Source of the DNA: a bacterium | Lineage (GTDB): Bacteria > CG2-30-53-67 | DNA length: 32,369 nucleotides | Assembly (NCBI GenBank): GCA_919901565.1 | Contig: CAKKPE010000134.1 | Span: 1 to 32,369 of the forward strand | Direction of reading: 5' to 3' | Shown here: in pieces, positions 15,368 to 19,037 of the stretch | How positions within the stretch are numbered: the first letter of the stretch is position 1 | How the letters are laid out: every line of letters starts with the position of its first letter | Program-made: the position numbers and the translations under genes | Notes under the pieces: model-generated | The model's input: only the letters and a program-made list of their open reading frames with translations | What the model was told of the DNA's origin: nothing | Databases searched by the model: none

Positions 15368-15649
15368 TCAGCCCGCGCTGAGTTCGAGGAGTTTTTTCTC
15401 AACGAGGTCCTGGATCAGGTCCATGGCCTGCTTTTGGATGACGGTCGTATCCCCCTCAAACTCCTGGGGGAGAAGCGAGAGGATCTCTCCCAACGGCACG
15501 TCTTCATTGCAGAGTTCCCAGATCCTAGCGCCGGTCTCGTTCAGAAGGTAAGGTTCCCCGTTTTGCTCATCGAACAGAACGGTATTACCGTCCTCCTCTC
15601 TCCAGAGCACGTTGGATGGAATGCTGGGTTTCCGATGATCCGTTGTCAT
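15368..15649 (-). CDS. PqqD-family peptide chaperone (RiPP recognition element)
   Basis: This 93-residue protein matches the PqqD fold. It opens with the N-terminal strands VLWREEDGNTVLFDEQNGEPYLLNETGARIWELC, followed by helices with VPLGEILSLL and QKQAMDLIQDLVEKKLLEL. PqqD domains bind the leader of a ribosomal peptide and present it to a radical SAM enzyme. Here the candidate precursor is the gene immediately upstream (22 bases) and the radical SAM gene the next one, so the pairing is natural. The start ATG has Shine-Dalgarno AAGGGTG, partly inside a small hairpin. Stand-alone PqqD proteins of similar size also occur beside HPr-kinase-related proteins in exosortase-type loci. Family confidence is high; partner identity is inferred. 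Confidence 0.88.
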   Translation of the reverse strand: MTTDHRKPSIPSNVLWREEDGNTVLFDEQNGEPYLLNETGARIWELCNEDVPLGEILSLLPQEFEGDTTVIQKQAMDLIQDLVEKKLLELSAG

Positions 15650-15652
15650 ATA

Positions 15653-15670
15653 TCACCCTTGTGTTGGTGA
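15653..15670 (-). promoter_or_regulatory. small hairpin over the PqqD ribosome binding site
   Basis: Between the precursor stop and the PqqD start, arms TCACC (15653-15657) and GGTGA (15666-15670) pair over 5 bp around an 8-base loop. Read on the minus strand, the second arm overlaps the PqqD Shine-Dalgarno. Such stems can favour precursor over maturase expression, but this one is short and may be fortuitous. Confidence 0.3.
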
Positions 15671-15671
15671 A

Positions 15672-15845
15672 TCAACTGAATACGGTATTCTTGTTGCTTT
15701 GTTGGCACGGAGTTGACCCGATTGGCACACTATTGCCGCTGCAAACGGCTGCCCGGGACCAGCCGGGGTTACATTGTGGCGGTACGCCAATGGTAAGGGA
15801 TCTGATCTCGGGTTTTGTCCATGTTCTTTTCGGTTTTGTTATCAT
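15672..15845 (-). CDS. candidate RiPP precursor peptide
   Basis: This 57-residue ORF has an excellent Shine-Dalgarno (AAGGAGT, 9 bases before ATG 15845). It sits between the radical SAM and PqqD genes, in their orientation. A longer frame runs back through the radical SAM gene but is a shadow; the ATG with the ribosome site decides the start. Residues 1-20 form a basic leader with WTKPEIRSL, close to the YxxPxL motif that PqqD/RRE domains bind in lasso leaders. The remaining 37 residues are core-like: Cys25, Cys35 and Cys47, single Trp29, five prolines, many Ser/Gly/Asn, and a C-terminal Ser57 (ending NTVFS). No signal peptide or double-glycine cleavage site is evident. I know no named family that it matches. 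The precursor role is inferred from size, leader motif and position. Confidence 0.75.
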   Translation of the reverse strand: MITKPKRTWTKPEIRSLTIGVPPQCNPGWSRAAVCSGNSVPIGSTPCQQSNKNTVFS

Positions 15846-15867
15846 GTTGTTTACTCCTTGCTTTTCT

Positions 15868-16875
15868 TTACTTTGTTTGAGAAAGCCGGATACAGGGGGT
15901 ATATTCCCCCCAGACATCGTTGGTGTGGAGATAGGCCTCGGCCCTGCATCCCCCCTTGCATTCATGCAGGAGGTCGCAGGATCGGCACCGGCCGTGAAGA
16001 TTTTCCTCCTGCAGGAACTGGGCATAAAGCGGGATTTGTTCCCAGGCCCCCTGGATCCCGTATTCCAGGACATTGTTTGAGAGCCCCCAGACGTGGGCCG
16101 GTGTGCAGGGGGTCATATTCCCGTCCGGCATGATCAGGCAGGTGGAGGCGGTTTCGCTCCCCACGGTGCAGGTGCTGGGCCTTCCGGTCTCAATAAAATG
16201 AAGTGTATGGTTTCTGAATGAAACCTTTACGACCAGTTTATTCAGGGACTGGATCATCTCCATGGTCTCATGCAGCTCTTTTTCGAGCGGCCGTAAGGAT
16301 TCGTAATTTGCAAAACCCCTGCCGGTTGCCATGACCTCGGAGGCATTGATCAGGGAAGGTTCAAATGGGATAAGTCTATGGACCAGCCGGGGCAGGTCAT
16401 GGATATTCTCCTGGGTGATGGTCACTTTGATATGCAGGTCCAGGCCTGCATCATGAATCCAGCCGAGGGCCTTGATGATCCGCTCAAAGGCATGTCCTCC
16501 CATGATGGCATCGTTGATCTCCGGTCTGGAGCCGTGGATGCTTACCTGGATCCGGTTCAGGCCATGGTCAGACAGGGTCCGGATGGATGCCGGGTCCAGT
16601 AAAACGCCGTTGGTGGTCAGGACCGTGAAGATACCGTTTTCCCGGAGGCGCTTCACATACCACAGGGTTTCCGGGATCAGGAGGGGCTCCCCTCCTGTGA
16701 GATAAACCTTCAGTATTTTGCATTGGATCAGGTCTTCGAGAATCAGGGCCCGTTTTTCGTCATCCAGTTCATTGTCCCGGATTTCCGGGCCCGATTCGCT
16801 GAGGCAGAAATTGCAGCTCAGGTTGCACCGGTCCGTGAGACACCAGTAGACTTCTATGGGGGTTTTCAGGAGCAT
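15868..16875 (-). CDS. radical SAM/SPASM peptide maturase
   Basis: This 335-residue protein has the radical SAM cluster motif CNLSCNFC (Cys17, Cys21, Cys24) and the GGEP SAM-binding motif at 61-64. Its C-terminal SPASM domain has eight cysteines (236, 246, 257, 297, 300, 306, 310, 328), enough for auxiliary Fe-S clusters. This layout is shared by PqqE, sactisynthases, ranthipeptide and cyclophane-forming enzymes, which form C-S, C-C or related bonds on a ribosomal peptide. Unlike many sactisynthases it has no N-terminal leader-binding (RRE) domain, which fits the separate PqqD protein. The start lies 3 bases after the HPr-kinase-like stop. Substrate and bond type are not determinable from sequence. 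Confidence 0.9.
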   Translation of the reverse strand: MLLKTPIEVYWCLTDRCNLSCNFCLSESGPEIRDNELDDEKRALILEDLIQCKILKVYLTGGEPLLIPETLWYVKRLRENGIFTVLTTNGVLLDPASIRTLSDHGLNRIQVSIHGSRPEINDAIMGGHAFERIIKALGWIHDAGLDLHIKVTITQENIHDLPRLVHRLIPFEPSLINASEVMATGRGFANYESLRPLEKELHETMEMIQSLNKLVVKVSFRNHTLHFIETGRPSTCTVGSETASTCLIMPDGNMTPCTPAHVWGLSNNVLEYGIQGAWEQIPLYAQFLQEENLHGRCRSCDLLHECKGGCRAEAYLHTNDVWGEYTPCIRLSQTK

Positions 16876-16878
16876 GCT

Positions 16879-17865
16879 TCAGACTGCCTTTAAAATGTTC
16901 ATTATGATACCGGGCAAAAAGGGAAAATCCCTTATAATATTATATTTTAACCGGGTTATGGCTATGCTGTCAACGATCGATTGTGAGACGTTAAAAGCAG
17001 CCCGGTTATGGCGGACCAGGTCTTCCCGGGCCGTGTCCGGAGACTCCTGGATCCTGACCGTCTCCAGGGAGGCAAGCAGGGAGAAAAAGGCCTCGGCTTT
17101 ATCCATTTTATCCGAATAAATGGATAAGTGCTTGATATCATTGTCTAAAAAAATCACTTGTTTTAATGGGGCACTTTCCGGAAGCGGTTCTCTGGAGTCG
17201 ATCCGGAAAACCTCTTCGTCCATGCTTTGCACCCGGGCCTTTTCATGCGCCATCAGGCCGAGTTCCGGATGTAGATTCATCACATCACGGGTGATCCGGA
17301 TCCTGCGGGGGTAGGGAAGGATCTGGAACGACCCGTTGCTTTCCATACGGATGAAGCTGTCCTCTTCGGAAAGATAACTGAATCCGTATTTCGTCAGGAG
17401 GCAGGAAAGGGAGGTCTTGCCTGAGTTGGTCTTGCCGAGGAGAAGGAAACCCATCCCGTCCTTGTAAAGGGATGCCCCGTGAAACACGGCCAGGTCTCCC
17501 ATAAGAGAAAGTTCCAGGTGGACCAGGAATCCTGTGGTCCCGAAAAGGATGACCACGGCAGCGTCCACCGGACAGAGTTTGCTGATATAGAGATGTACAG
17601 TTCGGTTCGGGATGTTCAGGACTGAGACGGTATCTTTACGGATCCAGTAGATCTCGTCTCCGGGATCTCTCTGAAGCGTTTCCATCGGTGTTTTGTCCTC
17701 ATTGAGGTCTTCTTTCTGTGTCAGGGTGATATGGATCCGCGGCGATGGGACCGGGCCGCATCCGAAGAAGCGCCACTCCTGGGCCAGTTGTTCCATGATC
17801 TCCGGGTGGTCGCCTTTCACACTGACGGAAATCCCGTGGATCTGAAAGAAATATTCGATGACCAT
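16879..17865 (-). CDS. HPr kinase-like (HprK-related) protein
   Basis: From ATG 17865 this is 328 residues. It resembles the C-terminal catalytic half of HPr Ser kinase/phosphorylase: LAVFHGASLY (His129), Walker A LLLGKTNSGKTSLSCLL (144-152), then an acidic pair in YLSEEDSFI. The N-terminal 100 residues are a divergent domain, and no HPr protein is encoded nearby. HPr-kinase homologues in lasso clusters (PadeK, ThcoK, PsmK) phosphorylate the C-terminal serine of the precursor. A similar HprK-related/PqqD/nucleotidyltransferase set is known beside exosortase loci. An upstream in-frame TTG at 17874 falls inside the AAGGAGTTG ribosome site and is less likely. The kinase fold is convincing; the substrate is inferred to be the nearby peptide. 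Confidence 0.82.
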   Translation of the reverse strand: MVIEYFFQIHGISVSVKGDHPEIMEQLAQEWRFFGCGPVPSPRIHITLTQKEDLNEDKTPMETLQRDPGDEIYWIRKDTVSVLNIPNRTVHLYISKLCPVDAAVVILFGTTGFLVHLELSLMGDLAVFHGASLYKDGMGFLLLGKTNSGKTSLSCLLTKYGFSYLSEEDSFIRMESNGSFQILPYPRRIRITRDVMNLHPELGLMAHEKARVQSMDEEVFRIDSREPLPESAPLKQVIFLDNDIKHLSIYSDKMDKAEAFFSLLASLETVRIQESPDTAREDLVRHNRAAFNVSQSIVDSIAITRLKYNIIRDFPFLPGIIMNILKAV

Positions 17866-17896
17866 TCGGATCAACTCCTTGCAGGGTAGTGCGGCG

Positions 17897-18973
17897 TTAT
17901 TCCAGATCCCTTCTCAACACGTCCCAGGTGAACCTCAGCCGGTCAGACATCCGGTCAATACAGGAGAAGGCAAAGAGCCGCTTGATGTGCCAGCTGTTTT
18001 TGACCATGGGGTGGAACATGTCATACTCACCAAGATACCAGTCGAGGATCCTTTTGCGGACCGGGCCGATGTGAAGGATTTCCCCGGGCCTTACCGGAAT
18101 CGTCATTTGGTAGAACCTCTCCAGGATGATCAGGGTGCAGGCCAGAAAGGTGGCGATGGATTGAGACCTTGCTCTTTCGACGACCCGGTCCCAGTGGATC
18201 TCCTTCTGCTGGATCCACTCGTGAATATCGCAAAGCCAGCTTAAGCGTTTAAAAAGGAAATGTTTGAAGAAATGAAGCGAGAGATAGAGGATTGTGTCGT
18301 CATTCGACATCTCAAGATACGTGCCGTACGGGCTCTTTTGGGCACTGGCCCAGATCCCAGACTCATCTATGCCGTAGCGGTTTTTCTCGCCCAGACTCCA
18401 GTGGACCTCCAGGATAACGGGAGCGGCCGAATCCTTGATATAGTGCGTATGGTATTGGTATTTTTGCACCTTGTCCGGGCGTTCATTCTTCAGGGGTTGG
18501 TATCCCAACTCCCGTACGATCGCGCCCACGGCATGAAGGTCCTCTTCTTTAACCAGGATATCGATGTCAAACATGGGACGGAGGGCGATGCTCGGGTAGA
18601 TTTCTCTGGCCAGGACAATCCCCTTGAGCCCGATGCAGGGGATGCCATGTCCGAAGAACTTTTCGGCCATCTTGTCCAGTTCATGGCCGAAGTAGAGATT
18701 GTTGGCCATGACCAGATGATATTGTGTTTTAAAAGATTCCATGAGGGGGGTATCCTGAAGATCGACCGGTCTTAAATTCCTGAGATGGTGGTAAAAGAGC
18801 GGGGCGACACCGAGCAGGCAGGCGGTCTCATAGATATAATTCCAGTCCAGCGACACGCTGGAGGCCCTCTGGATGGCGTTCAAGTCAAGCTGTGAAACGC
18901 GGGTGAGAAGGGCCATCAACTGGTGTTCATCGTGGTGATGATCCGGGTGTTCAGTTATTTTTTCAGATTTCAA
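17897..18973 (-). CDS. nucleotidyltransferase family protein (PF14907-type)
   Basis: This protein of about 358 residues has the MinD-like nucleotidyltransferase hallmarks of the uncharacterised NTP_transf_5 group. They are GIPCIGLKGIVLAREIYP, the metal-binding RPMFDIDILV (two Asp), and EVHWSL as the third acidic strand. A helical C-terminal half follows. Homologues sit in lasso peptide clusters (for example the pseudomycoidin PsmN gene), where they act with the HPr-like kinase on the C-terminal phosphoserine, and in HPr-rel-A/exosortase cassettes. It is the first gene of the operon, 22 or 31 bases before the kinase gene. Two TTG starts compete: 18985, with no ribosome site, and 18973, six bases after GGAG. 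I chose the latter. The N-terminus is His-rich (HPDHHHDEH). Confidence 0.82.
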   Translation of the reverse strand: MKSEKITEHPDHHHDEHQLMALLTRVSQLDLNAIQRASSVSLDWNYIYETACLLGVAPLFYHHLRNLRPVDLQDTPLMESFKTQYHLVMANNLYFGHELDKMAEKFFGHGIPCIGLKGIVLAREIYPSIALRPMFDIDILVKEEDLHAVGAIVRELGYQPLKNERPDKVQKYQYHTHYIKDSAAPVILEVHWSLGEKNRYGIDESGIWASAQKSPYGTYLEMSNDDTILYLSLHFFKHFLFKRLSWLCDIHEWIQQKEIHWDRVVERARSQSIATFLACTLIILERFYQMTIPVRPGEILHIGPVRKRILDWYLGEYDMFHPMVKNSWHIKRLFAFSCIDRMSDRLRFTWDVLRRDLE

Positions 18974-19008
18974 GAACTTCTCCAAGAAAAGCTTGTAACT
19001 ATAATAGA

Positions 19009-19037
19009 ATTATAAGATATTAGCCATAACAGGTCAA
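19009..19037 (-). promoter_or_regulatory. sigma-70 type promoter of the peptide-modification operon
   Basis: On the minus strand TTGACC (19032-19037) is separated by exactly 17 bases from a perfect TATAAT (19009-19014). This predicts transcription from about 19002, roughly 20-30 bases before the nucleotidyltransferase start. It is the best consensus promoter noticed in the window and reads into all five operon genes. Confidence 0.7.

Follow-up and report, generated by a model that had tools for sequence, protein, structure and literature searches.

The C-terminal serine of paeninodin-type lasso precursors is phosphorylated by HprK-like kinases, PadeK, ThcoK and PsmK, lasso kinases of this kind requiring His-Lys-Asp-Asp, and an annotated nucleotidyltransferase, PsmN, is needed for placing hexoses on the phosphoserine (PMC9266682). 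The RREs of paeninodin clusters read WxxP leaders. Linear polyphosphorylated peptides (LPPs) of RRE/HprK/NTP-transferase clusters occur in capsule loci, and the HprK kinase of the characterised LPP acts on an internal serine, S3. Like the locus described below, paeninodin and LPP clusters are located in polysaccharide loci, where their role is an open question (PMC13381572).

The window analysed here, a stretch of 32,369 nucleotides, is one contig of a 2.96-Mb genome (G000) that is 97% complete. It contains an operon of five genes, all on the minus strand and separated by gaps of 22, 3, 22 and 22 bp, which encode, in order from the promoter-like site, an NTP transferase, an HprK-like kinase, a radical SAM enzyme, a short peptide and a PqqD protein (Table 1). 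An earlier note, made from the letters of this DNA, had described five tightly spaced genes on one strand; all are present in the order it gave. The single promoter that it proposed can be endorsed only as a promoter-like site, recognised by its consensus match and not from functional evidence, immediately ahead of the first start codon. The alternative TTG start of the NTP transferase gene at 18973 is preceded by GGAGAAG. The operon is convergent with a glycosyltransferase family 9 gene, the end of a surface-polysaccharide locus in which a Pfam scan identified an SLBB exporter, a Wzz/tyrosine-kinase protein, an O-antigen ligase, a flippase and glycosyltransferases.

Table 1. Features of the operon, with positions in the whole window.
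Feature	Position	Strand	Evidence and remarks
Promoter-like site TTGACC-17-TATAAT	19009..19037	-	Consensus scan, 11/12; consensus match only
PF14907 nucleotidyltransferase (NTP_transf_5)	17897..18985	-	Pfam 1.8e-51; TTG start 18985 or 18973
HprK-like serine kinase	16879..17874	-	HprK_rel_A 5.7e-5; PDB profile; structure model; family alignment
Radical SAM/SPASM enzyme	15868..16875	-	Radical_SAM PF04055 1.8e-25; PqqE 6c8v 4.4e-35, full-length
Precursor peptide, 57 aa, MITKPKRTWTKPEIRSLTIGVPPQCNPGWSRAAVCSGNSVPIGSTPCQQSNKNTVFS	15672..15845	-	Cross-genus profile 3.8e-14; alignment; dN/dS
PqqD-family RRE protein, lasso-type PqqD nearest	15368..15649	-	PF05402 4.1e-14; NF033536 2.8e-10, below cut-off

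Among roughly 400 genomes searched, the radical SAM gene was found in nine, belonging to three phyla, with 39–86% identity to that of the window. Within the window's family it is present in every one of the six genomes (G000–G005), at 86% identity in G001, 66% in G002, 62% in G004 and 40% in G005, with a partial copy in G003; the loci of G002 and G003 are interrupted by contig ends. In the second phylum it is present in G049 and G326, and in the third in one Candidatus Schekmanbacteria genome (locus L056, G386). A scan of genome contigs with the radical SAM profile and strict patterns returned only three true relatives, and further matches of 1e-55 to 1e-70 (L070–L073) were excluded for having no HprK neighbour by phmmer. 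A short ORF with W, P, two or three cysteines and a C-terminal Phe-Ser adjoins the radical SAM gene in all nine genomes. The order of genes is CPBP protease, NTP transferase, HprK, radical SAM, peptide, PqqD and B2-like protease in G004; CPBP protease, HprK, PqqD, radical SAM, peptide and B2-like protease in G005; and HprK, PqqD, radical SAM, peptide, B2-like protease and NTP transferase in the Schekmanbacteria genome. Since the order varies while the set is constant, a functional link between the genes is indicated. Of these genes, the one for the radical SAM enzyme is conserved best; the NTP transferase gene adjoins the cluster in L021 (9.4e-123), is absent from the operon in G005 and apparently G003, and lies elsewhere in those genomes. 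No exporter is conserved across the clusters. Genes for an ATPase and an HD-domain protein were also seen near the cluster in two same-family loci (L021:13630-15671, L043:3969-6004) and in Schekmanbacteria (L056:1985-3953), hinting at the transfer of a larger block.

The 57-residue ORF is, judged from its sequence conservation, a real gene. It matches no family in Pfam or NCBIfam, and its ATG is preceded by AAGGAG, a Shine-Dalgarno sequence. A precursor profile made from five sequences, all from outside the window's genus, recovered it among 463 window ORFs at E 3.8e-14 (47.2 bits); the runner-up ORF reached E 0.54 (5.1 bits), and the best score in ten shuffled windows was 8.5 bits. The G326 precursor was found by profile at the expected spot in a genome-wide search (5.4e-5). 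W, P, two cysteines and the C-terminal Phe-Ser are invariant in an alignment of eight precursors, and the ninth, from G326, fits this pattern; the W-x-x-P leader motif, with W first, is present in all nine. Seven precursors have three cysteines, and both from the second phylum have two. Values of dN/dS of 0.47 (G000–G001), 0.09 (G004–G002) and 0.22 (G001–G004) indicate that the ORF is under purifying selection. In the G000–G001 comparison dN is 0.42 for the precursor and 0.086 for the radical SAM gene, a roughly fivefold difference as expected of a RiPP precursor. The locus thus has the marks of a RiPP cluster, namely a short precursor gene, a conserved leader motif, a more variable core and adjoining modifying enzymes. 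The earlier note placed all five genes in a single pathway directed at the short ORF, and this view is supported by the recurrence of the ORF, with its WxxP leader and C-terminal Ser, beside the cluster at every recovered locus; homologous loci devoid of such an ORF, which the note had named as grounds for rejecting its proposal, were not encountered. The conserved cysteines, the C-terminal Phe-Ser and the relatives' B2-like and CPBP proteases had gone unmentioned there. The two second-phylum precursors (L023:7614-7817, L069:1394-1603) begin with a Tat-like stretch, MKRREFLEKGKK..., placed before KKW[IV]SP and an AYAD site, a start that suggests export before or during maturation.

By sequence the kinase is weakly identified (NCBIfam HprK_rel_A, 5.7e-5), with no match to any Pfam family. 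Its AlphaFold model is confident (pLDDT 87.5), and the 50 best structural matches in the PDB are all PEPCK (best E 7.2e-9), a known structural relative of HPr kinase, while the family profile matches HPr(Ser) kinase 3tqf and HprK/P 1ko7. As modelled, the protein has the HprK/PEPCK fold. In the 3tqf profile alignment H132, K153 and E170-E171 fall on the catalytic His-Lys-Asp-Asp residues; His132 and Lys153 are invariant in the family, and at the acidic pair the family has [DE]-E, with Glu-Glu rather than Asp-Asp in the window protein. Phosphorylation of the C-terminal serine, as claimed in the earlier note, is favoured by the invariant serine next to an HprK-like kinase and by the analogy with PadeK, ThcoK and PsmK, and the Glu-Glu pair counts against it. 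By that analogy the kinase likely phosphorylates the C-terminal Ser of the precursor, and this is the most economical reading because Ser is invariant whereas most residues ahead of the Phe vary, because a suitable kinase is found at every locus whose contig extends far enough to show it, and because the peptides of three other PqqD–peptide–radical SAM–HprK loci (L025, L027 and L029) do not end in Ser, which makes the residue a trait of the present precursor family. The presence of a kinase does not by itself fix the site, since that of the LPP system modifies S3, and since the penultimate Phe is invariant too, the conserved C-terminus may be there for the radical SAM enzyme rather than the kinase.

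The best NCBIfam match of the window PqqD protein is lasso_PqqD_Bac, below the curated cut-off, and in all five PqqD proteins sampled the lasso RREs are the nearest, their models scoring best but below curated cut-offs. By analogy with the paeninodin RREs, the protein would bind the precursor leader. The resemblance to the paeninodin and pseudomycoidin lasso systems extends to a discrete PqqD-type RRE, the WxxP leader, the C-terminal Ser, the HprK-like kinase and the nucleotidyltransferase, and, in most relatives of the window cluster, to a B2-like protease. The recovered clusters differ in having a radical SAM/SPASM enzyme and no macrolactam synthetase, and in the conserved cysteines and C-terminal Phe-Ser of their peptides. 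Pfam detected no macrolactam synthetase (lasso C protein) among the window genes, and none was evident in the relatives' flanks read as ORFs; a lasso peptide was rejected for want of the cyclase.

The B2-like protein, a putative cysteine protease with invariant Cys, His and Asp, is encoded in G001–G005 and G386, and was not found in G000, G049 or G326 by searches with a single sequence and then with a family profile, which replaced PF13471 as a marker that was too insensitive and gave nothing over cut-off. The protein scores 0.0012 against NCBIfam lasso_biosyn_B2, below the cut-off. Its model is of moderate confidence (pLDDT 71), and most of the best structural matches, at E about 0.02, are transglutaminase-like cysteine proteases, which is suggestive of a protease of this type. 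In G001 the gene lies on a different contig from the cluster, beside a CPBP gene and near the contig end, and its apparent absence from G000 may therefore reflect an assembly gap. Four same-family genomes encode a membrane protease of the CPBP family (Rce1-like) next to the cluster or next to the B2-like gene (L021:6600-7259, L022:9210-9869, L024:15823-16482, L053:3510-4208); the window has none.

HPr-rel-A systems (TIGR04352, TIGR04353), which are reported to lie beside exosortase loci, likewise combine an HprK-related kinase with a PqqD-related chaperone. The window proteins fall short of these models, the kinase with 22 bits (cut-off 200) and PqqD with 28 (cut-off 35). Exosortases are encoded in seven of the nine genomes, on other contigs or, in G049, about 165 kb away, and with scores under cut-off and no exosortase nearby this system was rejected. 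The SynChlorMet cassette (TIGR04248–TIGR04251) shares a PqqD-like protein, a radical SAM/SPASM enzyme and ScmC, which the window kinase matches weakly (E 0.0033), but differs, judging from the family names, in having two radical SAM enzymes, ScmE and ScmF. The window proteins reach 16.8, 22.1, 87.7 and 71.9 bits against ScmC, ScmD, ScmE and ScmF, far below the respective cut-offs of 125, 100, 400 and 400. No curated family of Pfam or NCBIfam names the window radical SAM enzyme, kinase or peptide. In the literature covered, which lay mostly outside the subscription journals, no paper was found on a radical SAM enzyme combined either with an HPr kinase and PqqD or with a lasso peptide and a nucleotidyltransferase, and none named SynChlorMet; given this coverage, the absence of a description is weak evidence of novelty. 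The parts are of known kinds, and their combination with a defined precursor family appears to be new.

The radical SAM enzyme carries CxxxCxxC (C17, C21, C24) and seven invariant C-terminal cysteines in a SPASM pattern (C236, C257, C297, C300, C306, C310, C328); the SPASM domain score in the window protein is just under cut-off. Both patterns are invariant columns in the family alignments, as is characteristic of a SPASM peptide maturase. It resembles the PqqE/SPASM peptide maturases over its full length and in the SPASM cysteine pattern, and PqqE (6c8v) is its closest relative of solved structure; its best NCBIfam scores, for PqqE (144.7 bits, cut-off 381) and the mycofactocin maturase (131.3 bits), are far below the cut-offs, and no sactipeptide or ranthipeptide maturase model reaches its cut-off. 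The conserved cysteines of the precursor are compatible with a thioether of the sactipeptide or ranthipeptide type, and with three of them beside a SPASM enzyme a thioether or other cross-link is the foremost candidate reaction. A different reaction is conceivable: the enzyme might act at the C-terminus like MftC or PqqE, by decarboxylation or by forming a C–C bond near the Phe-Ser, to give a small redox cofactor or signal, with the kinase in a regulatory role. The solved and curated relatives just named and the invariant Phe-Ser speak for such a product; we nevertheless judge it unlikely, as the conserved cysteines would not be needed for the reaction, no further cofactor-pathway gene recurs in the loci, and tailoring by HprK-like kinases and NTP transferases is known from lasso and LPP clusters (PMC9266682, PMC13381572). 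The core would be modified, most likely by a cross-link through one or more conserved cysteines.

LPP clusters, too, combine an RRE, an HprK kinase and an NTP transferase without a lasso cyclase, often in capsule or polysaccharide loci, but their leader is YxxP, the Ser they use is internal, their leader peptidase is SpI-type and their exporter MsbA-like, and their described core has no radical SAM enzyme (PMC13381572). The shared module and partly shared polysaccharide neighbourhood would accord with a linear polyphosphorylated peptide of LPP type, modified mainly by phosphate, with the radical SAM enzyme in a secondary tailoring role. Such a product is nonetheless quite improbable: neither an SpI-type signal peptidase nor an MsbA-like exporter was detected by Pfam scan among the window genes, the LPP leader YxxPxVLxHQ is not matched (W replaces Y in all nine precursors), and the radical SAM gene occurs in all nine genomes while the NTP gene is sometimes outside the operon. 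That the short ORF arose by chance, the enzymes having a different protein as their substrate, is, in spite of its small size and the lack of a family match, exceedingly improbable and was rejected on the cross-genus profile and the shuffled controls (all below 9 bits), with the purifying selection, the Shine-Dalgarno site and the nine-genome adjacency against it as well.

It is near certain that the operon encodes a RiPP pathway. Probably it represents an undescribed RiPP family with RRE-guided precursor binding, serine phosphorylation, NTP transfer where that gene is present, a radical reaction on the core and cleavage of the leader, and it is best read as the RRE, HprK and NTP-transferase module of paeninodins and LPPs combined with a radical SAM enzyme that stands where the lasso cyclase would be. 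As we infer the steps, the PqqD-type RRE would bind the 57-residue precursor at its WxxP motif and pass it to the modifying enzymes; the kinase would (poly)phosphorylate the invariant C-terminal Ser; in clusters that have it, the PF14907 transferase would attach a nucleotidyl or sugar group to the Ser phosphate; and the radical SAM/SPASM enzyme would modify the core, most likely through cysteine cross-linking. The leader would be removed last, in most relatives probably by the lasso-B2-like cysteine protease, which in the window genome would be missing from the assembly or replaced. Against this reading stand the Glu-Glu pair of the kinase, the position of the NTP gene outside the operon in G005 and apparently G003, the failure to find a B2-like protein in G000, G049 or G326, and the lack of a conserved exporter.

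Polysaccharide-related genes surround the cluster in four of the nine genomes (G000, G001, G386 and G326, the last three judged from ORF sequences) and are not evident around it in G002–G005 or G049; in the Schekmanbacteria genome genes of SLBB export type and of Wzz type follow immediately downstream of the cluster. Covalent attachment of the peptide to glycan is speculation, and a hybrid class in at least three phyla, with a radical-SAM cross-link and a C-terminal Ser that is phosphorylated and then nucleotidylated or glycosylated, permitting covalent joining to surface polysaccharide, is rather unlikely. If the preferred RiPP reading is true, the C-terminal tailoring module of RRE, HprK and NTP transferase is portable beyond lasso peptides and linear phosphopeptides onto a radical-SAM product. 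The system is compact and naturally varied, with the NTP gene inside or outside the operon, the B2-like protease present or absent and leaders plain or Tat-like, and this variation lets one ask what the C-terminal phosphate does and why the clusters occupy polysaccharide loci, questions shared with paeninodins and LPPs (PMC13381572).

Related arrangements were also seen elsewhere. G002 has a second PqqD–peptide–radical SAM–HprK cluster (L025:9608-9808), encoding a peptide with a YVKPII leader and a core rich in Trp and Cys, SNCWPDLCWPIWTCMPDFCWPWVCPP, and in distant genomes short ORFs with YxxP leaders lie beside PqqD, radical SAM and HprK-like genes (L027:8055-8201, L029:4736-4912). A four-gene operon of NTP transferase, HprK, PqqD and radical SAM genes, with no obvious precursor ORF, is present at L034:7133-10185, and Tat-like peptides with YxAPx[IV] are encoded near HprK/NTP genes in L026 and L031.
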